Assembly: GCA_022843945.1 (NCBI GenBank)
Contig: JALHMR010000002.1
Location: forward strand, 136,073-200,072
Direction: 5' to 3'
Length of the DNA: 64,000 nt
From: Rhodospirillaceae bacterium
GTDB taxonomy: Bacteria; Pseudomonadota; Alphaproteobacteria; CACIAM-22H2
Both the position numbers and the translations under genes were made by a program. Under the pieces are notes generated by a model. The model was not told the origin of the DNA. It did not search any database and saw only the letters and a list, made by a program, of their open reading frames with translations. Of the stretch, positions 28,744 to 45,860 are shown one piece after another. Each line of letters opens with the position of its first letter. Within the stretch, counting starts at the first letter, position 1.

Positions 28744-29525
28744 CGGGTCCCGTCATTTCCGTGCGCGACCTCACGGTGCGTTTCGGCGCCTCGGTCGCCG
28801 TCGACAGCGCGACGTTCAGCGTCGGCAAGGGCGAGAGCTTCGGCCTGGTCGGGGAATCGGGCTCGGGCAAGACCACGGTCCTGCGCGTGCTCGCTGGCCT
28901 GATCCGCGACTGGACGGGTGCAGCGAGCGTCGCCGGTCACGACCTCAAGCGGCAGCGGCCGCGCTCGCTGGCCCGCATGGCGCAGCTGGTGTTTCAGGAT
29001 CCCTATGCCTCGCTGCATCCGCTGCACACGGTCGACCGGGTGCTGGGCGAGGTCGCCGCCATCCACCGGCTCGACAATCCCAACGAGCGCATCGAGGCGG
29101 TCCTGCTCGCCGTCGGCCTGGGTCCCGAGTTCCGCTTCCGCTTTCCCCATCAGCTCTCCGGCGGCCAGCGCCAGCGCGTGGCCGTGGCCCGGGCCCTGAT
29201 CCTCGAGCCGACCATCCTGCTGCTCGACGAGCCGACCTCGGCCTTGGACGTCTCGGTGCAGGCGGAGATCCTCAACCTGCTGCGCCGGCTGCGCGCCGAG
29301 CGCGGCCTCACCCTGCTGCTGGTCACTCACAACCTCGCCGTGGTGGCCAATCTCTGTGAGCGCCTGGCGGTGATGCGCCGCGGGCGCATCGTCGAGACGA
29401 TGGACGCTGAACGCCTGCGCCGCGCCGAGCCGGAGCAGGCCTATACCCGCCAGCTAATCCTGGCCAGCCGCGGCTACGACCGCGCCAACGCCGCGGAAAT
29501 AGCCTTCGAGACCGAAGTCGGTTAG
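28740..29525 (+). CDS. Dipeptide-type ABC transporter ATPase (DppF class)
   Basis: A 261-residue ATPase with Walker A GESGSGKT, the class motif MAQLVFQDPYASLHPLHTVD, signature LSGGQRQRVAVARAL, Walker B ILLLDEPTSALD and H-loop VTHN. It overlaps the DppD-class gene by 4 bp and ends the five-gene importer operon. Its end overlaps the convergent DUF6455 gene by 4 bp, so the two transcripts could interfere. Confidence 0.92.
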   Translation: MTGPVISVRDLTVRFGASVAVDSATFSVGKGESFGLVGESGSGKTTVLRVLAGLIRDWTGAASVAGHDLKRQRPRSLARMAQLVFQDPYASLHPLHTVDRVLGEVAAIHRLDNPNERIEAVLLAVGLGPEFRFRFPHQLSGGQRQRVAVARALILEPTILLLDEPTSALDVSVQAEILNLLRRLRAERGLTLLLVTHNLAVVANLCERLAVMRRGRIVETMDAERLRRAEPEQAYTRQLILASRGYDRANAAEIAFETEVG

Positions 29526-32321: not shown

Positions 32322-32927
32322 TCAGGGTTGGGAGAACAGGTCCTCGCGCTCGACCGACACCGCTTCGAAGCGCGACGCCTCCATGGCAGGCGACCAGTGG
32401 GTGAGGGGGATGCCGGCCTTTTCCTTGAGCGCCGTGACGAAGGCCGCGGGCGAGGGCAGCATCTCCCAGACCTGGGGCAGGAACAGCGCCATGCGCTCGC
32501 CGTCGCGCAGGATCAGGCCGTCGTGGCCGGGACGCAAGGTGCGCAGCAGTTCGCTTTCCGAGGACACGGCCATCGGCTCGGGCGCGGTGAGGATCGAGAC
32601 CGACAATGAAAGCCCGCTGAGCTCGTCCTCCGCGAGCGGCGGAAAGCGGGGCTCCTCGAAAGCCGAGGCCGCGGCGTTGCCGGCGACGTCGAGAACCAGC
32701 GGCCGCCAGGCGCGCGAGGAGCCGACGCAGCCGCGCAGCTCGCCGTGCCGGCGCAGGGTGACAAAGCAGGCCCCCGGCATCGCGAGATCCGGCGCGAAAC
32801 GTTGCGGCTCGACGACCAGCCCGTCGCCGGTGCGCAACGTGTGGCGGATGCTGTCAGCGGCCAGACGCAGCAGCGTTTCGCCATGATCCCGGAGCAGAAT
32901 TCCGACCTCGTCGGCTGACAGTCCCAT
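32322..32927 (-). CDS. AMMECR1-domain protein (AmmeMemoRadiSam system protein A type)
   Basis: A 201-residue protein with the AMMECR1 domain: the near-invariant LRGCVG motif (Cys67) follows FVTLRRHGE, then FPPLAEDELSGLSLSVSILT and MALFLPQVWEMLPSPAAFVT. In many prokaryotes this domain sits with a Memo-like protein and a radical-SAM enzyme, but neither neighbour is present here. Its biochemical role is not established. The gene is divergent from the carbonic anhydrase gene. Confidence 0.88.
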   Translation of the reverse strand: MGLSADEVGILLRDHGETLLRLAADSIRHTLRTGDGLVVEPQRFAPDLAMPGACFVTLRRHGELRGCVGSSRAWRPLVLDVAGNAAASAFEEPRFPPLAEDELSGLSLSVSILTAPEPMAVSSESELLRTLRPGHDGLILRDGERMALFLPQVWEMLPSPAAFVTALKEKAGIPLTHWSPAMEASRFEAVSVEREDLFSQP

Positions 32928-32995
32928 GGGGTTCCTGCAGTCCAGAGGACGCTAATCGTATGCTATGGTTGGCGGACCTGACAGGGGGAGGTTCC

Positions 32996-33730
32996 ATGCA
33001 CGACCACGATTTCCGCCCTTGCGATGCTTGCCAGACGACGGTCTCGCGCCGCTGGTTGCTGACTGCGGGTGTAGCCGTGGCCGGAGCGTTGTCTCTGCCG
33101 CGCCAAGGCCAGGCTGCCACGGCGCAGCGACCGAAATCGCCGGTCGACGCCGCTACGGCCCTGCGCGACCTGCAGGAGGGCAATAGTCGCTACGCCGCGA
33201 ACGCGGCGCGCAACACCGATTACTCGCGCGATCGCCTGGCGCGGGCGGCAGGGCAGGCGCCCAAGGCCATCGTCCTGGGCTGCGCCGACTCGCGCGTCGT
33301 GCCGGAGCTGCTGTTCGACCAGGCGCCCGGCGAGGTCTTCGTGGTGCGGGTGGCCGGCAACTTCCTCAACACCGACAACATCGCCAGCATCGAATACGCG
33401 GTCGAGTATCTCGGCAGCCCGCTGCTCTTCGTCCTCGGCCATTCCGGCTGCGGCGCGGTCGATGCCGCGATCAAGGTGATGAAGGACAACCTGGAACTGC
33501 CCGGCCAGCTGCCGCAGCTGCTGCGGCCGATTTTTCCGGCGGTCAGCGCCGCCGAGGCGCAGAGACCGGCCAACCTGCTCGAGGCGGCGATCGAGAGCAA
33601 TGTCCGCGGGCAGGTTCGCCAGGCACCGACCATGTCCGGGCTGATCGGCCGCTACGTGGCGAGCGGCGATGTCCGGGTCGTCGGCGGCGTCTACGAGATC
33701 GCCACCGGTCAGGTGCGGATGGTGAGCTGA
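32996..33730 (+). CDS. Exported beta-carbonic anhydrase
   Basis: A 244-residue beta-class carbonic anhydrase (CO2 to bicarbonate). The zinc ligands are Cys96 in LGCADSR, His149 and Cys152 in GHSGCGAVDAA, with Asp98 and Arg100 forming the catalytic dyad. The N-terminus carries a Tat-like signal (SRRWLLTAGVAVAGALSL) after a short cysteine-containing leader, so the enzyme is probably folded with zinc before export. The ATG at 32996 has GGGGGAGG 5 nt upstream. No transporter or lyase neighbours are present. It may serve bicarbonate supply or pH balance in the periplasm. Confidence 0.92.
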   Translation: MHDHDFRPCDACQTTVSRRWLLTAGVAVAGALSLPRQGQAATAQRPKSPVDAATALRDLQEGNSRYAANAARNTDYSRDRLARAAGQAPKAIVLGCADSRVVPELLFDQAPGEVFVVRVAGNFLNTDNIASIEYAVEYLGSPLLFVLGHSGCGAVDAAIKVMKDNLELPGQLPQLLRPIFPAVSAAEAQRPANLLEAAIESNVRGQVRQAPTMSGLIGRYVASGDVRVVGGVYEIATGQVRMVS

Positions 33731-33862: not shown

Positions 33863-34558
33863 ATGCAAGGAAAAGTCCTCGTTGCGGCGACCAGCAAGGG
33901 CGGCGCGGGCAAGTCGACAACCATCGCCTGTCTCGCGCTCTACTGGCACACGACGGGCCGCAAGGTCGCGCTCGTCGATTCCGACCCGAACCAGACCCTA
34001 AGCCGCTGGCATTCCAAGGGCGGCGCCTTGTCCCAGTTGATGCTGCGCACGCAACTCGACGAGCACGCGATGATTCCGACCATCTCCGAGCTCGTCGACC
34101 AGCACGATCTCGTGCTCGTCGATTGCGCGGGCTTCGGCAACCAGGCCATGGTCTTCGCCATCGGCGCCGCGGATGTGGTCATCATTCCGACGATGACCGA
34201 CGAGGCCAACGTGTTCGAGGCGCTGCGCACGCGCAAGGTCGTCGACAGCGCCTCGCGGCTGACGCGGCGCGATATCCTGGCGCGGACCCTCCTGACCCGG
34301 GTGAAGCGCGCGGGCATCGTCGATCACACGCGCGAGGAGCTGGTGAAGTTCGGCGCCCCTCCGTTACGAGCGGTAATGAACGACCGCGTGCTGTTCCAGG
34401 AGGCGACATTCTATGGGTCCTCGCCTACGGTATTATCGCCCGGCAGCTCGGCGGCGATGGACGTGGAGGGGGTCGCGCAGGAGATCGAATCCTTGCTGTG
34501 GGTAAGGATTGAGTCCATTGTGCCGGCCGCGGCGGTCGAGGTTTCGCCCGCCGCCTGA
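33863..34558 (+). CDS. ParA/MinD-like P-loop ATPase without a ParB partner
   Basis: A 231-residue cytoplasmic ATPase with the deviant Walker A motif SKGGAGKST (residues 11-19, with signature lysine Lys12), ALVDSDPNQTLSRW after strand 2, and Walker B-type LVLVDCAGFGNQA. ParA proteins bind DNA or membranes nonspecifically and position cargo such as plasmids, chemoreceptors or carboxysomes. No ParB gene or parS-like cluster is nearby. Instead, a mitofilin-like membrane protein gene starts 20 bp downstream. The likely cargo is therefore a membrane or envelope assembly; that is inference. Confidence 0.85.
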   Translation: MQGKVLVAATSKGGAGKSTTIACLALYWHTTGRKVALVDSDPNQTLSRWHSKGGALSQLMLRTQLDEHAMIPTISELVDQHDLVLVDCAGFGNQAMVFAIGAADVVIIPTMTDEANVFEALRTRKVVDSASRLTRRDILARTLLTRVKRAGIVDHTREELVKFGAPPLRAVMNDRVLFQEATFYGSSPTVLSPGSSAAMDVEGVAQEIESLLWVRIESIVPAAAVEVSPAA

Positions 34559-34578
34559 TTAACCGGCGAGATGTGGCC

Positions 34579-35874
34579 ATGGCCCGAAAGCACACCATTC
34601 CCGGCGTCGATGAAGCAGCTCTGTCGGAGCTGGCGCGCCAGTTCCCAACCCACGATATCGGCGAGCCGCCGCGCCCCTACGAAGACCCGCCCCGCGGGGG
34701 CACCAGGACCACCGGCACCACCGCCACCCGCCGTAGCGCTGCCGCCGGCATAGCCTTGGGCGTTTCGATCGTCGCCCTGCTGGCGGCCGCCGCACCCTAC
34801 GTTGCCCCCTCGTTTCGGGCCGAGCTCTCGGACGCCTTCGGCGACGGCCCGGTGATCCAGACGCTCCTTGGCGACCGCGCCGGTTTCGAGCGCTCCTGGG
34901 GGACGGAGCGCGCCGCCCGGGCCGAGATGGAACGCCGCCTTGCCGAGAGCGTGGAAAAGGCCGGCGCCGAAACGCGCGCCGTCGCGGCAAGGGTGGAGCA
35001 GCTCAATACCCAGGCCCAGCGGACCGATACCCGCGTTGGTGCGATCGAGGCCGTCGGCGGCGGCGGGTTTGAATCCGCGGCGCGGCGCGTGGATGCTGTC
35101 GAGGCTGCCCTGGCGGCGGCGGCGGCGCGTCTCGGCACGATCGAGGCGGGTGTTGCCGAGGCCAAAGGCGGGGTTGAGGCGGTCGGCCGCGATGTCGGCA
35201 GCCGCTTGGCCGAGGTCGAGCAGCGCGCCCTTTCCCTGATCGAGGAAAAGGCCGGCTCGCTGGAGCAGCAGGTAACGGCCGCTCAGGGGGCGGCCGGCGA
35301 GGCTGCCGAGAAAGCCGCCGCGGTGGAGCAGAATTTCGGCGAGCTACGCCAGTTCAACCGGACGTCGGTCCGGCTCTTCCTGATCGCGCTGCATCTGCGC
35401 ACCGCGGTGCAGACACCCTCTCCGTTCGCCCGCGAGATTGCCGCCGTGAAGGCGGTGGTCGGCGAGGACGCGGAGGCCAACGCGGCCTTGCAGGTTTTGG
35501 GCGAGCACGCCAACGGCGTGCGCACGGTCAGCGACCTGCGCGACACGTTTGGCATGGTGGTGGGCCAGCAGGTCAAGGCGCTGGCGGCCGGGCTCGACCC
35601 CTCCTGGGCGTCGCGGCTGGCCGCGATGGTGGCCGGTCCGCAGGTCCCGCGCGGGGGCGAGGGCGAACGGGTCTGGCGTGTGGTCGTCCAGGCGGAACAG
35701 GCGCTGGCCCAGGGCAACCTGGCCGCCGCGATCAATCAGGTCGAGCGCTTTGACGGCCCCGCGGGGGCGGTTGTCGCCGAGTGGCTGCGTGATGCCAAGG
35801 CGCGGCTGGCGGTCGAGAACGCGGCGGCGCAGCTCTCGATCTACGCGCTGAACCAGCTCGTCAGCGGTTCTTAA
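34579..35874 (+). CDS. Mitofilin/Mic60-like membrane protein with coiled coil
   Basis: A 431-residue protein: a short proline-rich cytoplasmic N-terminus, one membrane helix at about 54-76, a long alanine/glutamate-rich coiled coil (about 105-255), and a C-terminal domain (262-431). The last reads RLFLIALHLRTAVQTPSPFA, then GVRTVSDLRDTFG, then QAEQALAQGNLAAAINQVER with GPAGAVVAEWLRDAKARLA. This is the order and spacing seen in the mitofilin domain of alphaproteobacterial Mic60, which bends inner membranes and contacts outer-membrane proteins. Bacterial mic60 normally lies with heme genes; here it follows a ParA gene. The GTG two codons upstream is a less likely start. Confidence 0.7.
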   Translation: MARKHTIPGVDEAALSELARQFPTHDIGEPPRPYEDPPRGGTRTTGTTATRRSAAAGIALGVSIVALLAAAAPYVAPSFRAELSDAFGDGPVIQTLLGDRAGFERSWGTERAARAEMERRLAESVEKAGAETRAVAARVEQLNTQAQRTDTRVGAIEAVGGGGFESAARRVDAVEAALAAAAARLGTIEAGVAEAKGGVEAVGRDVGSRLAEVEQRALSLIEEKAGSLEQQVTAAQGAAGEAAEKAAAVEQNFGELRQFNRTSVRLFLIALHLRTAVQTPSPFAREIAAVKAVVGEDAEANAALQVLGEHANGVRTVSDLRDTFGMVVGQQVKALAAGLDPSWASRLAAMVAGPQVPRGGEGERVWRVVVQAEQALAQGNLAAAINQVERFDGPAGAVVAEWLRDAKARLAVENAAAQLSIYALNQLVSGS

Positions 35875-35923
35875 AGTCCGGGGCTCTTGAAGGCTGGCGA
35901 TCGGGCCTGACGCCGGCCAAGCG

Positions 35924-36406
35924 TCAGACGCGGATCCGGTTATACCAGCGGCGCGCGCCCGGAATCGGCAGGGGCACGAAGAACAGCCGGATACGGCGGG
36001 GGCGCAGTTCCTCGCGGATCATGATCCGTTTGACTTGCTGCTTCGCCTGCTTGACCGTTAGGCCGTCGTTGATCAGGCCGCGATACATCCGGGCTGCCTC
36101 GTTGAAGTCCTTTCGCGCGACCTTCTCCTTGCGCGCCCGATGCTTCAGGAACGCCCGCACGTTCTCTTCCGCCTGGCTCTCGAGGCGGATGTTTTTGTCA
36201 TTGGCGATCCCGTGCAGCACGCCCTGCGCCTGGTCGCGGTCCATCCCGAAATCGGAAATCGCCGCCTTGAGCAGGACGGTTTCGTCGTCGCGCGGGAGGA
36301 AGCGGCGGTTGGTCGCGTGCAGGCTGACATAGTCGGCGAATTGCCGCCGGTCACGCTCGCGCGACAGGGCGCTGACATCCGAAACGGAGAGAGAATGGTC
36401 GGGCAT
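35924..36406 (-). CDS. Hypothetical basic protein
   Basis: A 160-residue helical, charged protein that I do not recognise. The N-terminal half is acidic to neutral (FLPRDDETVLLKAAISDFGM). The C-terminal half is strongly basic (LKHRARKEKVARKDFNEAAR, then VKRIMIREELRPRRIRLFFV) and ends PIPGARRWYNRIRV. No signal or membrane helix is visible. The basic tail suggests binding to nucleic acid or to acidic membrane surfaces. It lies 15 bp downstream of the binding-fold gene on the minus strand and is probably co-transcribed with it. Confidence 0.6.
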   Translation of the reverse strand: MPDHSLSVSDVSALSRERDRRQFADYVSLHATNRRFLPRDDETVLLKAAISDFGMDRDQAQGVLHGIANDKNIRLESQAEENVRAFLKHRARKEKVARKDFNEAARMYRGLINDGLTVKQAKQQVKRIMIREELRPRRIRLFFVPLPIPGARRWYNRIRV

Positions 36407-36421
36407 GCGGGTCGTCGTCCC

Positions 36422-37501
36422 TCAATCCTTGAGGAGGTTGCTGGCAGGGCGCATCTCGGGCGCCGCCGGTTGAGAGGCCGGGTCGGCGGTCCAGCGCGCC
36501 AGCCAGACGAGGCCGGGTTCGGTGACCGCGGTGGCAACGCGCTTGGCCTCGGTGATGGCCTGGCCGAGAACGTTCGTCGCGGTGGCCAGGGCATTGTCGA
36601 GCCACTGGCGCGGCGTACGGCTCAGGCCGCCGTTCACGGTCAGGCGGGCGATCGTCTCTGACACCGCACGGTCGGCGCCGGCATTCACCACCACGCCGAG
36701 CGTCGTGCAGATCGTCTCGTGGCGCGTGGTCCGCAACAGGCCGGGGCCCGGAATCTCGACGCGGCCCGCGCTATAGGGCAGGCCATGCAGGGAGGCGAGC
36801 TTGACGAGATGCGCGTTGAAGAACGGAGCCGGTTCCAGCGCACCCGTGTGGAGGGCGTCGGTCAGCGCCGGATCGAGCGTGGCGCCATACGCCATGACCA
36901 CCATCACGTCGGTTTCGCCGGCGAGCACGCGGCTCACGGCCCGCGCGCCACCGCGGTGCTCCAGCCGCGGATGGGCCAACGCCACGTCGAGACTGCGCAG
37001 GATGGCGAGCGTCGTCGCGGTCCAGCCCTCGGCGCCGCCAACGTCGAAGGTCACCGTTTCCGCCTGACGGCGGGCGGCGATCAGATCGGCGTGTGAGCGC
37101 ACCGGGCTGTCGCGCCGGACAACCGCGAGCGCGCAGGCCGGAACATCGCCGTAAATCTCGAGCCCCGAGCGGGCGCTTTCATTCAGCGAGCGGAAGGCGG
37201 CAAGACCGTCGCGCTGGGCAAAAGCGATCCGGCTGCGATCGGTGAGCACCGCTGCCAGGACGCCTGGGCCGCTCGATGTCGATTGCAGAGACGCGGCGAC
37301 GCCCGGCGAAAGCCCGTGCTTCAGGCGATCGCCGAACGGAGCGAGCGGATCCGCCGGATCTTCACTGGCGAGCACGATGGCGGGGGGCGCCGCGTGGGCA
37401 GGCTGCCCGGTCAGCAGGAAGCCTGCGACGAGACCGGCAACGGCCGCGGCGGAACACCAAGTAACACGTGAAAATTCGGGCGCCGACGAGCGGAGCGCCA
37501 T
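36422..37501 (-). CDS. Exported periplasmic-binding-fold protein (TAXI/NMT1-like) with C-terminal extension
   Basis: A 359-residue protein with a signal peptide (hydrophobic CSAAAVAGLVAGFLLTG, cleavage near AHA-APP). The body looks like a TAXI- or phosphate-type two-lobed binding domain: IVLASEDPADPLAPFGDRLK, IAFAQRDGLAAFRSL, TVTFDVGGAEGWTATTLAIL and RVLAGETDVMVVMAYG. After the domain there is a helical C-terminal extension (QWLDNALATATNVLGQAITE onward) not usual for binding proteins. No transporter genes are near. It may act as a periplasmic sensor or scaffold for the neighbouring membrane proteins rather than in uptake. Confidence 0.65.
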   Translation of the reverse strand: MALRSSAPEFSRVTWCSAAAVAGLVAGFLLTGQPAHAAPPAIVLASEDPADPLAPFGDRLKHGLSPGVAASLQSTSSGPGVLAAVLTDRSRIAFAQRDGLAAFRSLNESARSGLEIYGDVPACALAVVRRDSPVRSHADLIAARRQAETVTFDVGGAEGWTATTLAILRSLDVALAHPRLEHRGGARAVSRVLAGETDVMVVMAYGATLDPALTDALHTGALEPAPFFNAHLVKLASLHGLPYSAGRVEIPGPGLLRTTRHETICTTLGVVVNAGADRAVSETIARLTVNGGLSRTPRQWLDNALATATNVLGQAITEAKRVATAVTEPGLVWLARWTADPASQPAAPEMRPASNLLKD

Positions 37502-37792
37502 GTATTCCCCCAGAACGGGCTCCCCAGAGACCCCGGATTAGCGTGCAAAAAACGCGAAGGGCGCGATTTAAGCGTGCTGTGGATTAGTTGTCACGTGTTA
37601 ATCGGCGCGGGGGCTCCCGGGGGCGTCAAAAACCAGAAATAAGCTTGGCTTTACGACTACTTAATTACCTTCGCGGGCGCAACATAATCGGCGGGCCTGA
37701 CAGTCATCGGCGTTGGGGATAAGCTAGGAATGCGCTCAAGCCGCATGGTACGCTTGCGGTGCAACGGGGACGGTAAAATCGGGGGCAAATCC
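37502..37792. promoter_or_regulatory. Divergent promoter region between the binding-fold and mitofilin-like genes
   Basis: A 291-bp region with an AT-richer core (37560-37700). It contains TCACGTGTTA at 37591-37600, the exact reverse complement of TAACACGTGA at 37462-37471 inside the start of the minus-strand gene. Such a pair around CACGTG could be a looping or tandem operator. No small gene was recognised. Confidence 0.35.
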
Positions 37793-38548
37793 ATGTCAGT
37801 TACGACGCCGTCGACGACCAACGGAAATGGCAAGCGGTCTGCCCGCGACAAGAGCGCGCCGCTCCGGGCAGAAATCGACAGCATCACGGAGCTGGCCAAG
37901 CGCGCAATGATCGTCGCGGGTGCGGCGGTCGTGGTGGCGCTGCTGAGCCCTCTGTGGTCGCCCTGGCTGTTCAGCGTGGTGGGTGGATCCGATCCCGGCT
38001 CGGCGCGGGTGCTGGTGATCGCGGTCGAGCAGTTGCGGCCGGCCATGAATTCCTCGGCGCCGTTCGAGCGCCAGGTTGCTCTCGTCCGCAAGATGATGGC
38101 CGGCGATCGTGAGGTGATACGCGCCCTCGATCAGATCCAGCCGGCGGCGGCGCGCGGCGTGCCCACGGCGGACGCCGTGCGCAGCGGCTTCATGGCCACC
38201 GCGAACCGGGTCTTTGTGGCCGAAGTCCTGCATATCGAGCCTGACCAGCGCTGGGTCAACAAGGCGATGGTCATGGCTGCTTCCGCGGTCCGTCCGCATG
38301 ACGTGGCGCGGACCTTCAACCTCAACAGCATGGGCCCCGCCACGTCGATCATTACGGCGGCCGCCCAGCGGTTGCGGGAGGATGATCTCGGAGGCGCCAT
38401 CCAGGCAGTGGAAACGCTGCCGGGCACGTATGAGGCCCTCACCGGCCCATGGCTGGCGGAAGCGCGCCAGCGCTACGCCGCGACCAACGGCCTTGCCACG
38501 CTCGAGGCGCTGGTGGCTTCCCGGCTCCCTGGCTCGTCGCAGCGCTAA
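37793..38548 (+). CDS. Short mitofilin-like membrane protein without coiled coil
   Basis: A 251-residue protein with a basic N-terminus, one membrane helix at about 38-63, and a C-terminal domain (71-245) that follows the same template as the mitofilin-like protein at 34579: VLVIAVEQLRPAMNSSAPFE, then ARGVPTADAVRSGF, QRWVNKAMVM, and AAQRLREDDLGGAIQAVETL with ALTGPWLAEARQRYAA. The coiled coil that normally separates membrane helix and mitofilin domain in Mic60 is missing. The ATG has GGGGGC 7 nt upstream. I infer a paralogue or partner that may form mixed oligomers at the membrane. Confidence 0.65.
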   Translation: MSVTTPSTTNGNGKRSARDKSAPLRAEIDSITELAKRAMIVAGAAVVVALLSPLWSPWLFSVVGGSDPGSARVLVIAVEQLRPAMNSSAPFERQVALVRKMMAGDREVIRALDQIQPAAARGVPTADAVRSGFMATANRVFVAEVLHIEPDQRWVNKAMVMAASAVRPHDVARTFNLNSMGPATSIITAAAQRLREDDLGGAIQAVETLPGTYEALTGPWLAEARQRYAATNGLATLEALVASRLPGSSQR

Positions 38549-38557
38549 AACGTCGGA

Positions 38558-39145
38558 TCAGATCCGGTGGCGCACATGCTGGATGAGCAGCGCCACCACC
38601 AGCAGGGTCCAGATATTCAGCCAGAATAGCAGCCAGAACAGCAGGCTGACCCCGAACAGGATGAGATAGCCGAACCATAGGGCGAAGCCGATGGTCAGCC
38701 CGACGCTGCGCCAGGCGTCGTTGGCCGGCCAGACGCGAAAGGCCGCCACGCAGATCAACCCGAGCGTTGCCGCGATCGTACCGACCAGGATCAGGGTGGC
38801 GGTGGCCCCCGGCTGGTAGGCCGCGTTGACCGAGGCGATCGGGGCGTAGGAGAACGGGTTTGTGCGCTCGACCAGGAACTGCCAGACCGAGATATTCCAG
38901 GGGCTTTCGTCGACGAACAGGCGTGCGATATCGAAGTAATGGCGCTGGTACTGTTCGAACAGAAGCGCGGCGCCGATCACGCAGCCCAGGACCTTGGCGA
39001 GGAAGATGAACAGCGGCACCTGGAAGAATTCCCGGCGGGCGAACCGGTCGAGCAGGTTGAGGGTAAGGCTGGTAATGCCGAGCAGGACCGCGATCGCGAT
39101 GCCGACGTTCAAAACCAGCCGGCCGAAGGGAGCGAGGACGTCCAT
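38558..39145 (-). CDS. Hypothetical multi-pass membrane protein
   Basis: A 195-residue inner-membrane protein with about five hydrophobic helices (for example LNVGIAIAVLLGITSLTLNL, ATATLILVGTIAATLGLICV and LLFWLLFWLNIWTLLVVALL) and one conserved-looking periplasmic or cytoplasmic loop, DESPWNISVWQFLVERTNPF. I do not recognise the family. The start is placed at ATG 39145, because two overlapping palindromes lie between it and the divergent gene; a GTG at 39235 in frame would cover them. It sits between the short mitofilin-like gene and the binding-fold gene at 39315. Confidence 0.6.
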   Translation of the reverse strand: MDVLAPFGRLVLNVGIAIAVLLGITSLTLNLLDRFARREFFQVPLFIFLAKVLGCVIGAALLFEQYQRHYFDIARLFVDESPWNISVWQFLVERTNPFSYAPIASVNAAYQPGATATLILVGTIAATLGLICVAAFRVWPANDAWRSVGLTIGFALWFGYLILFGVSLLFWLLFWLNIWTLLVVALLIQHVRHRI

Positions 39146-39185
39146 TTGGGAAGGGCGCTCGGGGTTAAGGAAGGCGGGGTGCCAG

Positions 39186-39207
39186 ATTGCGCGCAATTGC
39201 GCGCAAT
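39186..39207. promoter_or_regulatory. Two overlapping 12-bp palindromes in a divergent promoter region
   Basis: ATTGCGCGCAAT occurs twice, at 39186-39197 and 39196-39207, sharing two bases. It lies between the membrane-protein start (39145, minus) and the binding-fold gene (39315, plus). Tandem perfect palindromes in this position look like a regulator binding site for both genes. Confidence 0.45.
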
Positions 39208-39314
39208 GGCGGGTGATCTTAAGGGGTTGGATCACAGAGGAGCAACCGTCGCATCATGGACGGCGTGGTCCGGGAACGGTAGAATCCGCCCAGGGGCAAG
39301 GGGGATTCCGAATC

Positions 39315-40517
39315 GTGGCGGGTGTTAATTCTGATCGCTGGTTGATCGCGGCGCTGACCATGCTTGTCGGCGCCTATGCGCTTGGGGCGCAGGCGCAGCA
39401 GCAGATGACCGCCCAGGGACTGCCGCTCTCGCCGATGCTGCGCGATGCGCTGGCTATCCAGGACGTGAAAGCGGCCCGTCCGCAAATCCGCATCGTCGGC
39501 TCGAGTTCGATGCACGATCTTACCCTGGCCGTTGCCAAAGACGTGATGGCGAAGACGGGTCTGAACGAGCCGATCGTCGAGGCGGTGGGGACCCGCGAAG
39601 GAATGCGGCTGTTCTGTGCTGGCGTCGGCGCGGAATTCCCGGACATCGTTGCGGCGGTACGCCGAATCACGAAGTCGGAATACACGGCCTGCATGGACAA
39701 CGGTATCGTCGACATTATTGAGATGCCGATCGGTCTCGATGCCGTCATTCTGGTGACAGAAAAGGGCGATACGGTTTTCAACCTCACGGCGCGCCACCTC
39801 TATCTTGCGCTCGCCCACCAGGTGCCGCGCGAGTTCGTGGTGACCGCGAACGTTCCGCCGGGCATTGCCCGCATGGCCCTCCTGGCCTATAGCGAACAGT
39901 TCCTGGACAATCCTTTCACTTTCTGGAACCAGATCGACAGCCGGCTTCCCGCCATACCCATCAAGGTTTACGGACCCTCGATCACCGCGGGGACGCGGGA
40001 CTTCGTCAACAGCGCCATCATGGAAGCCGGCTGCCGCTATTTTAAGCCGATCCGCAACATTCCGTCCGCGGCGGAGCGGGTGCGGCAATGCACCACATAT
40101 CGCGGGTCGCCGCAGTTTGTCGACGTCCCGGACCCCTACGAGGATAACGTCGTCAGCGTGGTCCTGGGGGAGGACGACGGCACGCTCGGCATCGTGACTT
40201 TCGCCATTCTCGAGAAGTACAAGGACCAGGTGGTTCCACTTCCCTACAACGGGCTGACCGTGAGCGAGGAGATGATCGCCGGTGGCGAATACCCGCTGCG
40301 GCGCACGATCTATTACTACGTGAAGCGCGCCCATATGCTGAATGCCAAGGGTGAAGGCGTGGTACGCGGCCTGCGCGAGTTCATGGCGGACCTGACCAAC
40401 GAAGCAACCATAGGTCCCGAGGGGTTGCTCGATCGGATGGGCCGGGTACCGTCTGCCGCGGTGGAACGCGAGACCGCGCGCCGCAATGCCGGCATCTTGA
40501 AGCGGCTGGAACGATGA
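39315..40517 (+). CDS. Exported PstS-like periplasmic-binding protein
   Basis: A 400-residue protein from a GTG start at 39315, with a signal peptide (DRWLIAALTMLVGAYALGAQ then AQ). ATG 39360 is an alternative start. The mature part follows the phosphate-binding-protein fold: RIVGSSSMHDLTLAVAKDVM, GTREGMRLFCAGVGAEFPDI, YTACMDNGIVDIIEMPIGLD, and a C-terminal RRTIYYYVKRAHMLNAKGEG. No Pst transporter genes are present. Its stop overlaps the next exported protein's start, and a third exported protein overlaps that, so it heads a small operon of envelope proteins. It may bind an anion as a sensor; the ligand is unknown. Confidence 0.75.
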   Translation: MAGVNSDRWLIAALTMLVGAYALGAQAQQQMTAQGLPLSPMLRDALAIQDVKAARPQIRIVGSSSMHDLTLAVAKDVMAKTGLNEPIVEAVGTREGMRLFCAGVGAEFPDIVAAVRRITKSEYTACMDNGIVDIIEMPIGLDAVILVTEKGDTVFNLTARHLYLALAHQVPREFVVTANVPPGIARMALLAYSEQFLDNPFTFWNQIDSRLPAIPIKVYGPSITAGTRDFVNSAIMEAGCRYFKPIRNIPSAAERVRQCTTYRGSPQFVDVPDPYEDNVVSVVLGEDDGTLGIVTFAILEKYKDQVVPLPYNGLTVSEEMIAGGEYPLRRTIYYYVKRAHMLNAKGEGVVRGLREFMADLTNEATIGPEGLLDRMGRVPSAAVERETARRNAGILKRLER

Positions 40518-41182
40518 GAGCCCACCTTGCCACCGTGATCGTTTGCGCCGGCCTTTTGGTCGCGGCACCAGCGCGGGCCGAGAACCTGTTCGATTCCGTG
40601 GTGGATACGCTGTCCTATGTCTGGTCGACGGTCGTCAGCATGGCGGGTTCGGCGACCGAGGCGGTCACGCCGCCGACGCCGATGGCCACCCTGCGATCCT
40701 TACGCGGCGAGGACAAGGGTGAGTTCTGGTCGATGCTGGAAGATGCCGGCTACGAGCTCCAGCACATCAATACCGAGGTCGGCCTGATCCCGCGCCTCGA
40801 GGCGATCTACATCTTCCGTCGCGAACTGTCCGAAGCCGACCGTGAGGCGCTCGAACTCCGGCTGGATCAGTACGCGCGCAAGGATGGCGGACTGATCGCC
40901 CGTCTTGAGCGCGCCATTGTCCACTCCCTGCTCGACGCCTCGGAGTTCGGTGAATATCGTATCAGCGAGCTCAAGGTCTCGTTCCTGCCGCTGCCTTCCG
41001 CCGCGTTTGTCCTGTCGCCAACCGAAGGCGGCATGGATGGGGACCATGACAAGATCTATCGCGCGGTGCGGGAGCAGACGCGCGAGTTGCGGCAAATGGA
41101 GCGCGAGCGTGCGGAGCGCGAGCGGAAGGCCCTATTGCGACCGCAGCAGGCGTCATCGAACGGTTCATTGCTAAAACCATGA
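40514..41182 (+). CDS. Exported hypothetical protein
   Basis: A 222-residue protein with a signal peptide (MRAHLATVIVCAGLLVAAPA then RAE). The mature part has an amphipathic start (NLFDSVVDTLSYVWSTVVSM), a compact alpha/beta domain (GEFWSMLEDAGYELQHINTE onward, about residues 69-165) and a charged C-terminal helix (EQTRELRQMERERAERERKA). I do not recognise a family. The 4-bp overlap with the PstS-like gene upstream, and a start 20 bp from the glycine-zipper gene downstream, indicate joint expression in the periplasm. Confidence 0.65.
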   Translation: MRAHLATVIVCAGLLVAAPARAENLFDSVVDTLSYVWSTVVSMAGSATEAVTPPTPMATLRSLRGEDKGEFWSMLEDAGYELQHINTEVGLIPRLEAIYIFRRELSEADREALELRLDQYARKDGGLIARLERAIVHSLLDASEFGEYRISELKVSFLPLPSAAFVLSPTEGGMDGDHDKIYRAVREQTRELRQMERERAERERKALLRPQQASSNGSLLKP

Positions 41183-41202
41183 GTGCACGTCAGGAGGAAG
41201 CC

Positions 41203-41583
41203 ATGCGCAAGCTCAGTACGCTTCTTTTCGTTGCTGTCCTGATGAGTTTCACATCCGCGGCGCAGGCAGCCGACGAATCGCCGCACTGGCGCCTGACGCC
41301 GGTCCAGGCCCAGACCTACAAGCAGCAGCGTGAAGGCTGGTCGGCCGGCAAGATTGCGGCCGTTGGCGTCGGCCTGGTCGCCGGGGTTTTCGCCGCCAAC
41401 GCCACTCTGCCGGTGGCGTGGGGCCTCGCCGCCCCGGTCCTCGGCGGTGCGGCCGGCGCCATGCTCGGCAACTGGGGCTATAGGCGCGCGACGGGCGAGC
41501 CGTCGATGCTGCGGCGGGCTTCGGCGACGGAAGTCGAAGTGCCGACCCTGTTCCAGCTCGCGGTGATCTCGAACCCGCAGTAA
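41203..41583 (+). CDS. Small exported glycine-zipper protein
   Basis: A 126-residue protein with a signal peptide (LSTLLFVAVLMSFTSAAQA) and a glycine/alanine-rich hydrophobic stretch, IAAVGVGLVAGVFAANATLP followed by VLGGAAGAMLGNWGYRR, which resembles a glycine-zipper membrane-inserting hairpin. The ATG at 41203 has AGGAGG 5 nt upstream, so the longer frame is rejected. Glycine-zipper envelope proteins often insert into or tether membranes. It is the last gene of the three-gene unit that starts at 39315. Confidence 0.7.
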   Translation: MRKLSTLLFVAVLMSFTSAAQAADESPHWRLTPVQAQTYKQQREGWSAGKIAAVGVGLVAGVFAANATLPVAWGLAAPVLGGAAGAMLGNWGYRRATGEPSMLRRASATEVEVPTLFQLAVISNPQ

Positions 41584-41655
41584 CGGATTGCTGCGGCGGG
41601 ACACAGAAGGGCAGGAGCGGCGCTCCCGCCCTTCGCTCATTCGCAGCCGAGAAGA

Positions 41656-42117
41656 TCAGTAGATTCGGACGTCGTTGGAATCGACCTGACCGGACAACCG
41701 GTGCCGGATGTGGGACCACGACACGCCGATGGCCAGCACGTTGGCCAGCATCAGCATCAGGATCATCGGGGTCGCGAAGCCGGTCAGCAGCTTCAGGTCG
41801 GCCAGGACCCAAATGATGGCGGCTGACAGCGCGGTGATCAGCGCGATCCCCGAATAGCCCAGGGCGCGCAGGGTTGCCAGGCCGTAGAGGCCGTAGACAA
41901 CGATCAGCGCAACTCCGGCCAGGGCCTTGAACGGCCAGAGATCGGTGCTCGCCTGGGCGATCCAGTGAAAATAGGAATAGCCGCTGGGATTGTACGTGGC
42001 GATGACAAGGAACACCGCCACGAGCCAGCGCACGAAGAAGCTGGAATAGCTGAACACGCGGTTTGCACCCCTGGTTCGCCCTCCATCGGTATCGTCCGAA
42101 CGGCCGGGCAGGGGCAA
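41656..42117 (-). CDS. DUF6524-family membrane protein (copy A)
   Basis: A 153-residue four-helix membrane protein. The diagnostic features are FLVIATYNPSGYSYFHWI in the first helix and loop and GVSWSHIRHRLSGQ at the C-terminus, both shared with the paralogue at 43135. The cytoplasmic N-terminus is charged. The family's function is unknown. It lies 12 bp downstream of the MlaA-like gene in the same direction, so the two are probably co-transcribed. Confidence 0.8.
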   Translation of the reverse strand: MPLPGRSDDTDGGRTRGANRVFSYSSFFVRWLVAVFLVIATYNPSGYSYFHWIAQASTDLWPFKALAGVALIVVYGLYGLATLRALGYSGIALITALSAAIIWVLADLKLLTGFATPMILMLMLANVLAIGVSWSHIRHRLSGQVDSNDVRIY

Positions 42118-42129
42118 ATTAGCGCGTCG

Positions 42130-43008
42130 TCACTGCCCAAACAACTGGATCTGCGCGTCTGTCCGCTCGTCGCAGGTCATGCGGGTGATTTGCAGATGGG
42201 CGCTCTTGATCGAGGCGTAAGGGTCGATCGACAGGGATTCGATGAAGCGTAGCTGTTCGCGGCGGTCGACATATTGCACGGCGATGTCGCCCAGCCGGTA
42301 GGGCACGTAAACCGGGCCGAGGATGCCGTAGAGCGCTACCAGGGTGGTGATGCGGCCCACGGCATCGCGCACGGTGGCCGGCCCGAGGACCGGCAGGACG
42401 ACATAGGGTCCCTCCGGCACGCCGAGCCGGCACAGGACCTCCTCGAGGGTGCGCACCTGGCGCGGATAGCCCTGCTCGCTGGCCGGATCATAGTACCCGC
42501 CAAGCCCGGCGGTCGTATTGATCACGAACCGCGCGCCCGCATCCGATGCTCCATCGACATCGCCGAGCAGCAGGTTCGAGGCCACGGTGATCGGCTCGCG
42601 CAGGTTGGCGAACACATTGGCGATGCCCTTCTGCACCGGCGGCGAGGCGAGATCCAGGTAGATCTGGGTCACCGGCTCCAGCAGATTGGCCCGCAGGAAG
42701 GTGTTGAGCTCGTGGGCGTAGCGGTTGATCCGCTCGTAAGGGTCGGAATGCTCCGCTGGCGGCGGGTCGGCGCTGCGCCGGCCCTGGGTCGGCGTGGCGG
42801 CCGGCGCCGGCGAGAGGGCCGAGGCGGGGACGAGGAAAGCCGGGTCCAGCAGCAGCTCGCGCCAGGCCGCTTCGGCCGAGCGCTCGCGCGGGGTTTCGGC
42901 CGCCGCCAGCGCCGCGCCGCCGAGGAGCGCCAGGGCCGTGACAGCGGGCAGCAGCACGCGGGCGACGCTTGGGCGGGCGGACTGCCCGAAAGGGAAAATG
43001 CCGATCAT
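42130..43008 (-). CDS. MlaA (VacJ)-family protein without a lipobox
   Basis: A 292-residue exported protein. The MlaA domain begins at SDPYERINRYAHELNTFLRA, continues with NLREPITVASNLLLGDVDGA, RFVINTTAGLGG, and PEGPYVVLPVLGPATVRDAV. MlaA is normally an outer-membrane lipoprotein that removes phospholipid from the outer leaflet with OmpC and the MlaBCDEF complex. Here the signal (VLLPAVTALALLGGAALAAA) has no cysteine at the cleavage site, so lipidation is unlikely. No mlaBCDEF genes are near; DUF6524 genes lie on both sides instead. Confidence 0.88.
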   Translation of the reverse strand: MIGIFPFGQSARPSVARVLLPAVTALALLGGAALAAAETPRERSAEAAWRELLLDPAFLVPASALSPAPAATPTQGRRSADPPPAEHSDPYERINRYAHELNTFLRANLLEPVTQIYLDLASPPVQKGIANVFANLREPITVASNLLLGDVDGASDAGARFVINTTAGLGGYYDPASEQGYPRQVRTLEEVLCRLGVPEGPYVVLPVLGPATVRDAVGRITTLVALYGILGPVYVPYRLGDIAVQYVDRREQLRFIESLSIDPYASIKSAHLQITRMTCDERTDAQIQLFGQ

Positions 43009-43134
43009 TGGCCGCCTGGTACGCCGGAACGCTGTTGCCGAAGGTTATAGTGCATGTATGACCGGTTCGCTCCCGACCCAGGGATAAACCGGGAAATGTG
43101 CTAGTCTTTAGCGGTACATCAATCGGATAGGCCC

Positions 43135-43581
43135 ATGCGGGCGGCAGAGGCCGAACTCGAACAGCCGACGGAGCACGTCTTCACCCTTGGCGGATTTCTG
43201 CTCCGCTGGGCGGGATGCGTGTTCCTGGTGTTCGCGAGCTACAATCCGACCGGCTATTCCTATTATCACTGGATAATCGGCAGCGGTGATGCTCAGTTGC
43301 CGATGAAGGTCGCGTCCGGCCTGGCGCTCGGTACGGCTTACCTTGCCGCGGTGCGCATCGCCCGCGTGGCGCTGGGTAACAGCGGCTTCATCACCGGATT
43401 GGTCGCGGCCACGCTTGTGAGTATCGCCATGCTGTCGCTTGTTTCGCCGGGAACCCGCTTTGCCGAGGTCATGCGCTACCTGCACCTGGTCTCGGTCGGC
43501 ACGACTCTCGCCGTCGGCGTTTCGTGGTCGCACATCAAGCACCGCGTCACCGGGCAGTGGACAACACGCTTCCTGTCATGA
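43135..43581 (+). CDS. DUF6524-family membrane protein (copy B)
   Basis: A 148-residue four-helix membrane protein and paralogue of the 41656 protein. It has FLVFASYNPTGYSYYHWI in the first helix and loop and GVSWSHIKHRVTGQW at the end. It is divergent from the MlaA-like gene, with about 125 bp between them, and its stop codon overlaps the start of the 563-residue membrane protein gene (ATGA), so the latter is coupled to it. The two DUF6524 proteins may form a pair. Confidence 0.82.
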   Translation: MRAAEAELEQPTEHVFTLGGFLLRWAGCVFLVFASYNPTGYSYYHWIIGSGDAQLPMKVASGLALGTAYLAAVRIARVALGNSGFITGLVAATLVSIAMLSLVSPGTRFAEVMRYLHLVSVGTTLAVGVSWSHIKHRVTGQWTTRFLS

Positions 43582-45269
43582 GCGACGACGCCCTTCCGAC
43601 ATCGCGGATCTCGCCGCCGAGCGGCACGATGGTGGCGCACGGGCTCGAGGCGCGCGTCGAGTTGGCCAATGGCATGGTGCGCATTCGCGGTGAGGGCCTG
43701 CTGGGCCATCTTATGGCGCTGATCGGTCACGGCGATACGCTTGCGGACAAGTCCATACCCGTCCGCATGATCTCCTCCGTGGAGATTTCGCGCACGTTCA
43801 TCCTGGGCGTCTTCTCTTTCGAGACCCTGCGGTTCAGCTATGCCGGCAGTCCCGCGCCGGGCGAAAGCCGCCTACGGGACACGCTGCTCGAGAACGTCGT
43901 GGTCATGAGCCTGTTTGACAACCGCGACTTCTACGCCCTGAAGGCCGCGATCGAGCGCGAGATGGCGGGCTTGCACTACTTCGGCGCGGGGGCGCCGCTG
44001 CCGGCCGCCATGGCTCCACCGTCCGATATGCCCCCGCCAGCGCCGCCTGCGCCATCCACGCCCTGGGCCGAGCGCGCCGGGACCTGGCTGGCCCGCACCT
44101 CGCGCGGCATGCCACGGCGCTGGAGTGGGGCGACGGTGCTGGCCCTGGTTGCCGCGGCGGCGCTGGGCTGGATCCTGGTCGGCAAGGAACAGGTCCCGCG
44201 GGTGGCGGGGACGCCCAACATCCGCCTGACCGATACGCTATTCCCCGCCCTCAACGGCAGCGGCCAGCGCCTGGTCACCTGGGATGCCGGGGCCGGCATT
44301 ACCTACCGCGCCACTGTCCGGGCGCGCGCGCTCGACGAGTTCCAGGCGTTCAACCGCGCCTGGGCCGAGGGCCTGCGCCGGCGTTTCGAGGCGCGGTTCC
44401 ACGAACGGCTGGTGGCCGAGATGGTCCCGGTCTTCGCCGATGTCGACCGGCGCATTCCCGAATACGGGGAGTGGGTATTCAACTGGTGGACGAGCTACAT
44501 CCTGATGGTCAAAGGCATGGGCGCCATCGTCACCCAGGTAGCCGACGGCACCGAGCAGACCCTGCAGGAGGTCGCCGAGAAGGTGATGTCCGATGCGATC
44601 AAGGAACGCTACGTCGAGATCGTCCTCTCACCGCAACGCTTCCGGCCGGCGCTGCACCAGGCGGTCGCTCGTGCCGCGGTCGACACGGTGAAGGAGCTTG
44701 GCGCGGCGTGCGAGGAGATGCGTGGCCGCTTCGTGGCCCTGGTCAGCGAGCACGGCCACGACGTGGAACTGCGCACGGCCGACGGGGCCTGGCTGGCTGA
44801 CCGCGGATGGCAGGCGCGGCTGACCCGCGAGGGCTATTGCCCAAGCCCCGGCAAGCATGTCGGCGCCTCGGTCGCGGCGCTCGAAGCGGCGGCGCCAACG
44901 ACCTTCGGCGTGACCGGCGCGATCGACGACGTGGCGATCCGCATCACCCGGCCCTTTGTCACGACGATGGTCAGCGCCGGCCTGTCGGCCTCGAGCCTCG
45001 CCGGTCTGGCCACGGCCATCGGCATCCCGGCGGCCCTGGTGGCCACCCCGGCCATGGCCGCGGTGCTGACCAAATCGGCCTTCACGCTCGTCGACCTGAT
45101 GCTCAGCGAGCTCGACGAGGCACTGAACCGTGAAAGCTTCGAGACGGCGGTGCACGACGCCGTGGCGCGGGCCCGCAGCGAGTTCGAGCGCGCCGCCGGA
45201 CAGGCCTTACGTCAGGCGCTCGAGCTGGAATTTGACGACATGGGCCTGCGGCCGCAACGAGCCAGTTGA
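43578..45269 (+). CDS. Large membrane-anchored protein with N-terminal strand-rich domain
   Basis: A 563-residue protein that I do not recognise as a whole. Residues 17-135 are strand-rich (EARVELANGMVRIRGEGLLG, then IPVRMISSVEISRTFILGVF) and resemble short bacterial PH-like domains. Residues 140-163 are proline-rich, 184-202 form a membrane helix, 210-460 form a helical domain with a WVFNWWTSYILM segment, and 461-500 form a hydrophobic hairpin rich in Ala/Ser/Gly. A charged helical tail follows. The start overlaps the DUF6524 copy B stop. The layout suggests a cytoplasmic lipid- or protein-binding head with a body across the membrane or in the periplasm. Confidence 0.65.
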   Translation: MSDDALPTSRISPPSGTMVAHGLEARVELANGMVRIRGEGLLGHLMALIGHGDTLADKSIPVRMISSVEISRTFILGVFSFETLRFSYAGSPAPGESRLRDTLLENVVVMSLFDNRDFYALKAAIEREMAGLHYFGAGAPLPAAMAPPSDMPPPAPPAPSTPWAERAGTWLARTSRGMPRRWSGATVLALVAAAALGWILVGKEQVPRVAGTPNIRLTDTLFPALNGSGQRLVTWDAGAGITYRATVRARALDEFQAFNRAWAEGLRRRFEARFHERLVAEMVPVFADVDRRIPEYGEWVFNWWTSYILMVKGMGAIVTQVADGTEQTLQEVAEKVMSDAIKERYVEIVLSPQRFRPALHQAVARAAVDTVKELGAACEEMRGRFVALVSEHGHDVELRTADGAWLADRGWQARLTREGYCPSPGKHVGASVAALEAAAPTTFGVTGAIDDVAIRITRPFVTTMVSAGLSASSLAGLATAIGIPAALVATPAMAAVLTKSAFTLVDLMLSELDEALNRESFETAVHDAVARARSEFERAAGQALRQALELEFDDMGLRPQRAS

Positions 45270-45284
45270 GGCCGGACGTCAGCC

Positions 45285-45860
45285 TTAGTGGAACGAGCGG
45301 CCGGCAACCATCTCGCCGGTACGACTGACGGCGTTGCCCACGGTGGCGATCACCGTGTGTGCACCTTCGGTGACCACCACGATGCCGTTGCGGGTCAAGT
45401 TGCCGGCGGTCACCAGGACGGTGCCGGCGCCGTCGATCGTGGCCACCACGCCGTTACGCGCGAGTTCGCCGACCGTCGAGGCGGTCGTGCCGACACCGTC
45501 GGCCACGCCTGTGACGCCGTCGCGGATGAGCCGGCCGCCGGCCGTGGCTGTTGTGCCGATGCCATCGGCGACGGTGGTGATGGCCCGTGTGCCCGCCCGG
45601 CTGATGCCGGTCACCGCCACGCCCGTCCCTTCGATGGTGCCGCCCACGCCGGCCGCCGTGCTCTGCACGATGCCGCCGCCTGCGGCCGCCACCGGCCAGG
45701 CGTACCAGACCACGGCCGCCGCCGCGGCGACGGCGGCGATGGTGACGATCTCGCCGGTGGTCAGGCCGCCCGACGGGGCCGGGGGCAGGACCTGGGCTTG
45801 CGCGGCAAGCGGCAGATGAGGGGTAAGGGCGATCAGTCCGACGAATGCCAGCTTGTGCAT
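45285..45860 (-). CDS. Exported protein built of 22-residue tandem repeats
   Basis: A 191-residue protein with a signal peptide (FVGLIALTPHLPLAAQAQ), a hydrophobic segment at about 37-60 and then five full 22-residue repeats plus a partial one (residues 63-191). Examples are GISRAGTRAITTVADGIGTT (85-104) and AGGRLIRDGVTGVADGVGTT (107-126). The repeats carry a G-x-x-x-(I/V/A)-(R/D/S) start and a (D/E)G-x-G/H centre. The regular Val/Thr/Gly pattern could give a beta-solenoid or an amphipathic membrane-lining surface. Convergent with the 563-residue protein, it closes the envelope cluster. Confidence 0.7.
   Translation of the reverse strand: MHKLAFVGLIALTPHLPLAAQAQVLPPAPSGGLTTGEIVTIAAVAAAAAVVWYAWPVAAAGGGIVQSTAAGVGGTIEGTGVAVTGISRAGTRAITTVADGIGTTATAGGRLIRDGVTGVADGVGTTASTVGELARNGVVATIDGAGTVLVTAGNLTRNGIVVVTEGAHTVIATVGNAVSRTGEMVAGRSFH
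45288..45674 (-). repeat. Coding tandem repeat, 66-bp (22-codon) units
   Basis: Five complete units and one partial unit encode residues 63-84, 85-106, 107-128, 129-150, 151-172 and 173-191 of the exported repeat protein. All full units are exactly 22 residues with no gap. DNA identity between units is moderate, so the repeats are old or selected at protein level. Confidence 0.75.

Follow-up and report, generated by a model that had tools for sequence, protein, structure and literature searches.

Which envelope function would call for a ParA-type ATPase, two mitofilin-like proteins, a pair of DUF6524 membrane proteins and an MlaA-family protein in one place? The question is raised by a 14-gene cluster of Rhodospirillaceae bacterium (GenBank assembly GCA_022843945.1, contig JALHMR010000002.1), located at positions 33863-45860 of the 64,000-nucleotide stretch that was analysed, hereafter the window. 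Mic60, to which the mitofilin-like proteins are related, is a shaper of mitochondrial inner membranes. By sequence analysis we established the gene set, its recurrence in other genomes, the homology of its products to Mic60, MlaA and DUF6524 proteins, the adjacency of its ParA and Mic60-like genes, and the linkage of the set to an MlaE-type transporter in relatives. We tentatively read the cluster as a ParA-positioned module for inner-outer membrane contact and lipid trafficking. No paper on this gene combination or on a comparable system, and none mentioning DUF6524, was found among open-licence papers.

Fourteen neighbouring open reading frames, here g1 to g14, were confirmed in the window on strands + + - - + - + + + - - + + -. 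A hydropathy scan placed a signal peptide or membrane helix in 12 of the 14, the exceptions being g1 (ParA) and g3, and there are no metabolic enzymes among them. The original prediction, made from the window alone, had described the cluster in just these terms. Pfam families were matched above their curated cut-offs by g1 (AAA_31), g2 and g5 (Mitofilin), g7 (PBP_like_2), g10 and g12 (DUF6524) and g11 (MlaA); the same scan gave no family for g3, g6, g8, g9, g13 or g14.

Recurrence of the cluster

The gene-neighbourhood search proposed with the original prediction found the set recurring jointly in at least 11 further genomes, namely two groundwater metagenome-assembled genomes (MAGs) of the same family (G399 and G403), two Lake Baikal MAGs, Terasakiella sp. 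PR1, and G451, G463, G578, G702, G731 and G758. These carriers represent several distantly related alphaproteobacteria and include a 1.6 Mb genome. In G399 (an NC_groundwater_998 MAG; L045, L046 and L054), 13 of the 14 genes lie on one contig with order and orientation kept, although extra genes are inserted at two junctions, g6/g7 and g9/g10, and the contig ends within g13. The 7.5 kb contig of G403 (an NC_groundwater_909 MAG; L049 and L055) carries a reordered set of g6, Mic60-like, g4, g3, DUF6524, MlaA, ParA and Mic60-like genes. A ParA-profile scan of the named genomes also recovered the two Baikal MAGs (L056 and L057) and Terasakiella sp. PR1 (L058), each with more cluster families. In the DNA examined around more distant ParAs (L059-L063) there was no marker family of the cluster.

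The core cluster marker is g3 (35924..36406, -), a basic cytoplasmic protein of 160 amino acids (aa). A g3 profile seeded from the window, G399, G403 and G451 was searched against a sample of 385 alphaproteobacteria and recovered G463, G477, G578, G662, G702, G731 and G758. Five of these seven newly recovered genomes have DUF6524 and g6 nearby, most also having Mic60-like and PH-domain genes; the contigs of G477 and G662 are short. In total, g3 was present in 9 of the 385 sampled genomes. Strong matches to g6 (38558..39145, -; 195 aa, with about four membrane helices) occurred in seven of the 385, all of them g3 genomes, together with one weak extra match; the g6 profile was built from cluster loci, which makes its presence there a matter of construction, but not its absence elsewhere. 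DUF6524 scored above the cut-off in 21 of the 385, comprising seven of the nine g3 genomes as against 14 of the 376 others (Fisher test, 1.7e-8, or 3.4e-6 once the two sampled genomes that had seeded the g3 profile are removed), and outside g3 genomes it was mostly solitary.

When tallied over 12 genomes, g6 was found at the cluster in all 12, a cluster Mic60-like gene in 11, DUF6524 in 10, and ParA, g3 and the PH domain in nine each. The C-terminal part of g13 (g13C) followed in seven, MlaA and a fused ABC-MlaE gene in six each, and a family termed p394, as well as a PBP (g7-type) gene with g8, in five each. Cluster genes of G463 and G731 are split over two contigs each, the halves being putatively linked.

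With > and < for the two strands and Mito for Mic60-like genes, the window reads >ParA >Mito <g3 <g4 >Mito <g6 >PBP >g8 >g9 <DUF6524 <MlaA >DUF6524 >PH+g13C <g14. The order in Terasakiella (G765) is <g6 <Mito <ABC-MlaE <p394 <g13C <PH >g9 >ParA >Mito, and that in G702 is >Mito >g3 >MlaA >DUF6524 >Mito >g6 <Mito <ParA <g9 <g8 <PBP >DUF6524 <PBP >PH >p394 >ABC-MlaE. G758 has >PH >p394 >ABC-MlaE >g3 <DUF6524 <g13C >g3 >Mito >g6 >Mito <ParA, and G451 has >g3 <g6 <PH <DUF6524 <ABC-MlaE <p394. Because order is loose and strands alternate, the cluster is not one operon.

A ParA-type ATPase beside Mic60-like proteins

The first gene, g1 (33863..34558, +), encodes a ParA-type ATPase of 231 aa (AAA_31, 45.5 bits). 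Its deviant Walker A motif, KGGAGKST at residues 12-19, is invariant in the orthologues aligned, those of the two same-family MAGs being 72-78% identical to g1. The NCBIfam ParA_partition equivalog scored 113 bits, under its cut-off of 180, and no ParB was found near the cluster ParA. A role in anti-phage defence was considered and rejected, as 10 scanned proteins gave no PADLOC match beyond a P-loop match of the ParA (E 0.001).

In eight of nine genomes ParA directly precedes a Mic60-like gene of the same strand, and in G758 the two genes stand tail to tail; they are thus adjacent in all nine. In the window this neighbour is g2 (34573..35874, +; 433 aa; PF09731, E 3.8e-12). The second Mic60-like protein is g5 (37730..38548, +; 272 aa; E 4.6e-11). 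The Mitofilin domains of g2 and g5 are C-terminal and score 46.4 and 42.8 bits with a cut-off of 27.4. Aligned by hhalign with hem-locus Mic60, the cluster mitofilin domains gave 99.9% probability and E 1.8e-32 over 178 columns, and the cluster mitofilin profile matches the solved MIC60-MIC19 construct 7pv1 (E 1e-5). On this sequence evidence the mitofilin-like domains of g2 and g5 are true relatives of bacterial Mic60, and an attempt to overturn the two mitofilin-like proteins of the original prediction from sequence failed. A fold search with the g5 model (Foldseek, VIA versus PDB) returned generic helical matches only.

Both proteins have a transmembrane segment at residues 54-81. In g2 it follows a cytoplasmic N-terminal tail and precedes a long helical region, read by eye, and the mitofilin domain. 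In g5 the single transmembrane segment leads to the mitofilin domain with no space for a coiled coil between them, and AlphaFold confidently models residues 89-266 as a helical domain. The cytoplasmic tail of g2 is conserved, its sequence in the window being RKHTIPGVDEAALSELARQFP. ParA-adjacent Mic60-like proteins begin with a basic tail and the motif RKxxxPGVDExALxxLARQFP in the window, G399, G403, G763 and G764, and with a variant of the motif in G758. We infer that the conserved tail is a putative partner site for ParA.

Separate hemD-linked Mic60 genes were seen in G398, G403, G463, G702, G758, G764 and G765, the hemD neighbours being called by sequence inspection of adjoining frames and not by a family search. 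The window genome also has a hemD-linked Mic60, truncated at a contig end with its N-terminal part visible (G000:C72:6-1289), and in G731 and G763 mitofilin genes adjoin a hemC-like and a HemY-like frame. Since a hem-locus Mic60 exists apart from the cluster in at least seven genomes, the cluster Mic60-like genes are additional paralogues; a tree of cluster and hem-locus mitofilin domains had many weak branches and settled no split into two clades.

In alphaproteobacteria, Mic60 acts to bend membranes and to support intracytoplasmic ones (PMC12136173). The cluster proteins share with Mic60 and the MICOS complex the C-terminal mitofilin domain and the inner-membrane anchor, as well as, in g2, a helical region ahead of the domain. 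They differ in adjoining ParA instead of hemD and, in the case of g5, in having no coiled coil, and neither Mic10 nor another MICOS partner was identified at the cluster. Orphan ParAs position protein clusters, and MipZ also has the Walker A sequence KGGAGKS (PMC9178275, the latter in a table). Like orphan ParA systems such as PpfA (PMC9178275), g1 is a small ParA with no ParB, and its gene lies next to that of a probable membrane cargo; unlike in them, the cargo would be a Mic60-like protein, for which g1 has a putative positioning role.

Putative lipid-transport components

The MlaA-family protein g11 (42130..43008, -; PF04333, E 2.7e-47) scores 161 bits with a cut-off of 25 and has a cleavable signal peptide. 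A lipobox is absent from g11 and from its G399 orthologue; a paralogue on contig C12 of the window genome has a suitably placed cysteine. The family membership given in the original prediction stands; with its lipobox absent, g11 is not a standard MlaA lipoprotein. Two more adjacent MlaA-like genes occur in the window genome (G000:C4:229846-231228; L175 8757-10745). They were considered as a sign of a hidden transporter elsewhere in that genome, which was rejected, there being no transporter genes nearby.

An ABC ATPase and an MlaE permease are joined in one chain in G451, Terasakiella (G765), G702, G758, G463 and G731, either in the cluster or on a second contig with cluster genes. The MlaE domain of the fusion matches at E 1e-7 to 1e-14, versus 1e-64 or better for the standard MlaE of the same genomes. 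In five of the six genomes the fusion adjoins p394, a periplasmic helical protein of 360-394 aa with one transmembrane segment and no family, and in G702 and G758 PH, p394 and ABC-MlaE form an operon-like head-to-tail series. Neither MCE (MlaD) nor MlaC nor STAS (MlaB) was found in the sets scanned, and p394 had no MlaD/MCE match at E 1. The ABC matches at 28000-29525 of the window are ordinary ABC ATPases, and an MlaE fusion was excluded there; the only MlaE genes of the window genome are two standard ones, both outside the cluster. Outside the Alphaproteobacteria, the genome G089 also has the pair of ABC-MlaE and p394 close to DUF6524. Regular short repeats resembling a CRISPR array lie about 12 kb from that ABC-MlaE gene (L214, ~812-2850).

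In comparison with the Mla system (MlaA, MlaFEDB and MlaC), the cluster has an MlaA-family protein and its relatives have an MlaE-type permease with an ABC ATPase. Unlike in Mla, permease and ATPase are fused and very divergent, MCE, MlaC and STAS were not seen, MlaA has no lipobox, and the window genome keeps standard MlaE and MlaA elsewhere. The chimeric Mla-Pqi system Mpc of Hyphomicrobiales is likewise an alphaproteobacterial trans-envelope lipid transport system built on an MlaE-type ABC transporter, but its own parts, a separate MpcF, MpcE with STAS, the MCE protein MpcD and the PqiC-like MpcA (PMC12436622), were not found in the cluster.

Membrane and exported proteins

The two DUF6524 membrane proteins are g10 (41656..42117, -; PF20134, E 1.5e-40, 138 bits) and g12 (43135..43581, +; E 2.5e-28, 99 bits). 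Next to the latter, g13 (43578..45269, +; 563 aa) combines a putative PH-like domain at ~15-137, expected to be cytoplasmic, with a transmembrane segment at 182-204, a long helical region and a second hydrophobic stretch at 471-489. Residues 15-137, in a model from a shallow alignment of five sequences, match many PH and FERM-F3 chains with Z 7-8.5 and rmsd ~2.8-4 over 80-94 residues. The PH and C-terminal parts are two genes, at the same locus or in the same genome, in G763, G765, G578, G758 and G731, and their fusion in the window therefore links the two parts functionally. A dynamin-like nature of residues 189-563 was rejected: the best match was a bacterial dynamin-like stalk and paddle (Z 10, rmsd 6.3; Z under ~13 being treated as commonplace among helical bundles), and a GTPase domain is absent. 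A sequence search of the PDB with profiles of the two parts of g13, g4 and p394 gave nothing credible, and profile relations between g13C and the p394 family and between g4 and g7 were tried and rejected.

The original prediction had included two binding-fold proteins and a repeat protein. Of the former, g7 (39297..40517, start approximate, +) is firmly an exported PstS-like protein of the phosphate-binding family (PF12849, E 9e-29; TIGR02136, E 2e-17, below cut-off); g4 (36422..37501, -; 359 aa), exported by a signal peptide and with orthologues in the two same-family MAGs, is only weakly and possibly TctC/TAXI-like (PF03401, sub-threshold, E 0.085). Exported g8 (40514..41182, +; 222 aa) adjoins g7 in every genome that has g8. 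The g9 family (41179..41583, +; 134 aa), exported and glycine-zipper-like with a G-N-W-x-Y motif, occurs at nine loci, and some of these low-complexity members may be chance matches. The exported repeat protein g14 (45285..45860, -; 191 aa), with about three imperfect 30-residue repeats, had no homologues at other loci and was found in the window only; it begins like g9 (signal peptide, then G-L-T-x-G-E-I) and has no match to the g9 profile.

Extra genes are linked to the cluster in some genomes, encoding an RND pump, HlyD, an Na/Pi cotransporter and a bestrophin-like protein (L138 6804-9926, L143 16866-18668, L076 16192-17829 and L140 2237-3028). A protein of 443-447 aa with no Pfam family is encoded beside the Na/Pi cotransporter in G702 and Terasakiella (L132 4443-5783 and L058 7841-9169). 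In G399, a transposase-like DDE frame and an HlyD-type membrane-fusion gene lie between g6 and g7 (L045 12637-15910), perhaps as a remnant of the HlyD/RND pair at the same place in relatives.

The cluster is flanked upstream by AMMECR1 and carbonic anhydrase genes and downstream by genes for a CMD-family protein and an M24 peptidase. The flanking genes were not found at any other cluster locus, so the boundaries given above are right. The beta-carbonic anhydrase immediately before the cluster (32960-33730) has an apparent twin-arginine-type export signal, and the AMMECR1-family gene beside it lies at 32322-32927.

Proposed mechanism and alternatives

For interactions, positioning, and transport with its direction, the following model draws on what is known of how the families behave (PMC12136173, PMC9178275, PMC12436622). 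The cargo of the module would be glycerophospholipid, moved via inner-outer membrane contacts that are placed in the cell. The Mic60-like proteins g2 and g5 would cross and bend the inner membrane and extend their mitofilin domains into the periplasm. By binding the cytoplasmic tail of g2, the ParA-type ATPase may spread or place the complexes along the cell, as orphan ParAs do with chemoreceptor clusters. DUF6524, g6 and the PH-domain protein g13 are candidates for a membrane scaffold, in which, where present, the MlaE-ABC fusion and its 394-aa periplasmic partner would power lipid movement. The outer part would be formed by the lipobox-less MlaA relative g11 and exported g7-g9. In the window genome, which has no transporter part, the module may serve for tethering or as a scaffold, or may make use of one of the two standard MlaE permeases.

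Our reading shifts towards lipid traffic because six relatives carry the MlaE-ABC fusion. The contact site of the original prediction is strengthened by this MlaE-type ABC transporter inside the clusters of relatives, while the contact itself is something we infer. Several observations weigh against a ParA-positioned contact and lipid-trafficking module: the loose gene order and alternating strands; the absence of the ABC-MlaE fusion from the window genome, G399, G403, G578 and both Baikal genomes; MlaA in only six of the 12 sets, with no lipobox in the window copy; a g2 tail of which G702 has just a part and G731 and G765 have nothing; and the RND pumps, Na/Pi cotransporter and PstS-like protein of some sets, which hint at other cargo.

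The best-placed alternative, unlikely in our view, is an accessory Mla-type lipid transport for outer-membrane lipid homeostasis, with the Mic60-like and ParA proteins merely structural or spacing aids and no special contact site. The MlaE-ATPase fusion, the MlaA relative, the PH-like domain and the operon-like run of PH, p394 and ABC-MlaE in G702 and G758 all fit such a system. It is opposed by the missing MlaD, MlaC and MlaB and the lack of an MlaD match for p394, and by the identity of the most conserved core, which is g6, Mic60-like, DUF6524, g3 and ParA rather than the transporter.

We consider it quite unlikely that the cluster builds or positions an internal membrane compartment, either an organelle or an intracytoplasmic membrane, whose neck would be occupied by Mic60-like proteins and whose segregation would fall to ParA. 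Other alphaproteobacteria need Mic60 if their intracytoplasmic membranes are to grow normally (PMC12136173), and some members of the genus of one carrier, Terasakiella sp. PR1, are magnetotactic; yet neither magnetosome nor photosynthesis genes were recognised next to the cluster, and groundwater MAGs and the 1.6 Mb genome are among the carriers. The compartment put forward in the original prediction has found no support so far.

Less likely again is a local complex for sensing a solute, phosphate or another anion, and for its uptake or efflux, in which the binding proteins, RND pumps and Na/Pi cotransporter do the work and the rest is scaffold. PstS-like g7 with g8 in five genomes, the Na/Pi cotransporter in G702 and G765, and HlyD and RND genes at five and four loci would suit it, but these parts are the least constant, being missing at most loci, and no linked PstABC permease was seen. 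Finally, a loose envelope island of members in unrelated pathways that only travel together would explain the strong variation in order and strand and the solitary DUF6524 of many other alphaproteobacteria, but is improbable given that no strong g6 match occurred without g3 in 385 genomes, that ParA adjoins a Mic60-like gene in nine of nine, and that the parts of g13, fused in the window, are two genes elsewhere, which links them.

Conclusions

Beyond the contact and lipid-trafficking module favoured here, a more specific proposal, which we regard as doubtful, is that of a contact-site machine in which specialised Mic60 paralogues and a lipid transporter would be positioned by ParA via the conserved tail, forming a free-living counterpart of MICOS contact sites. 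Mic60 is the chief pointer to mitochondrial membrane architecture being older than mitochondria, and the locus bears on the arrangement and placement of inter-membrane contacts in diderm bacteria. The cluster supplies context for DUF6524 and several families without a known function. By tying Mic60 paralogues to a positioning ATPase and, in relatives, to lipid transporters, it also supplies genes and a named genus, Terasakiella, in which the placement of such contacts may be approached.

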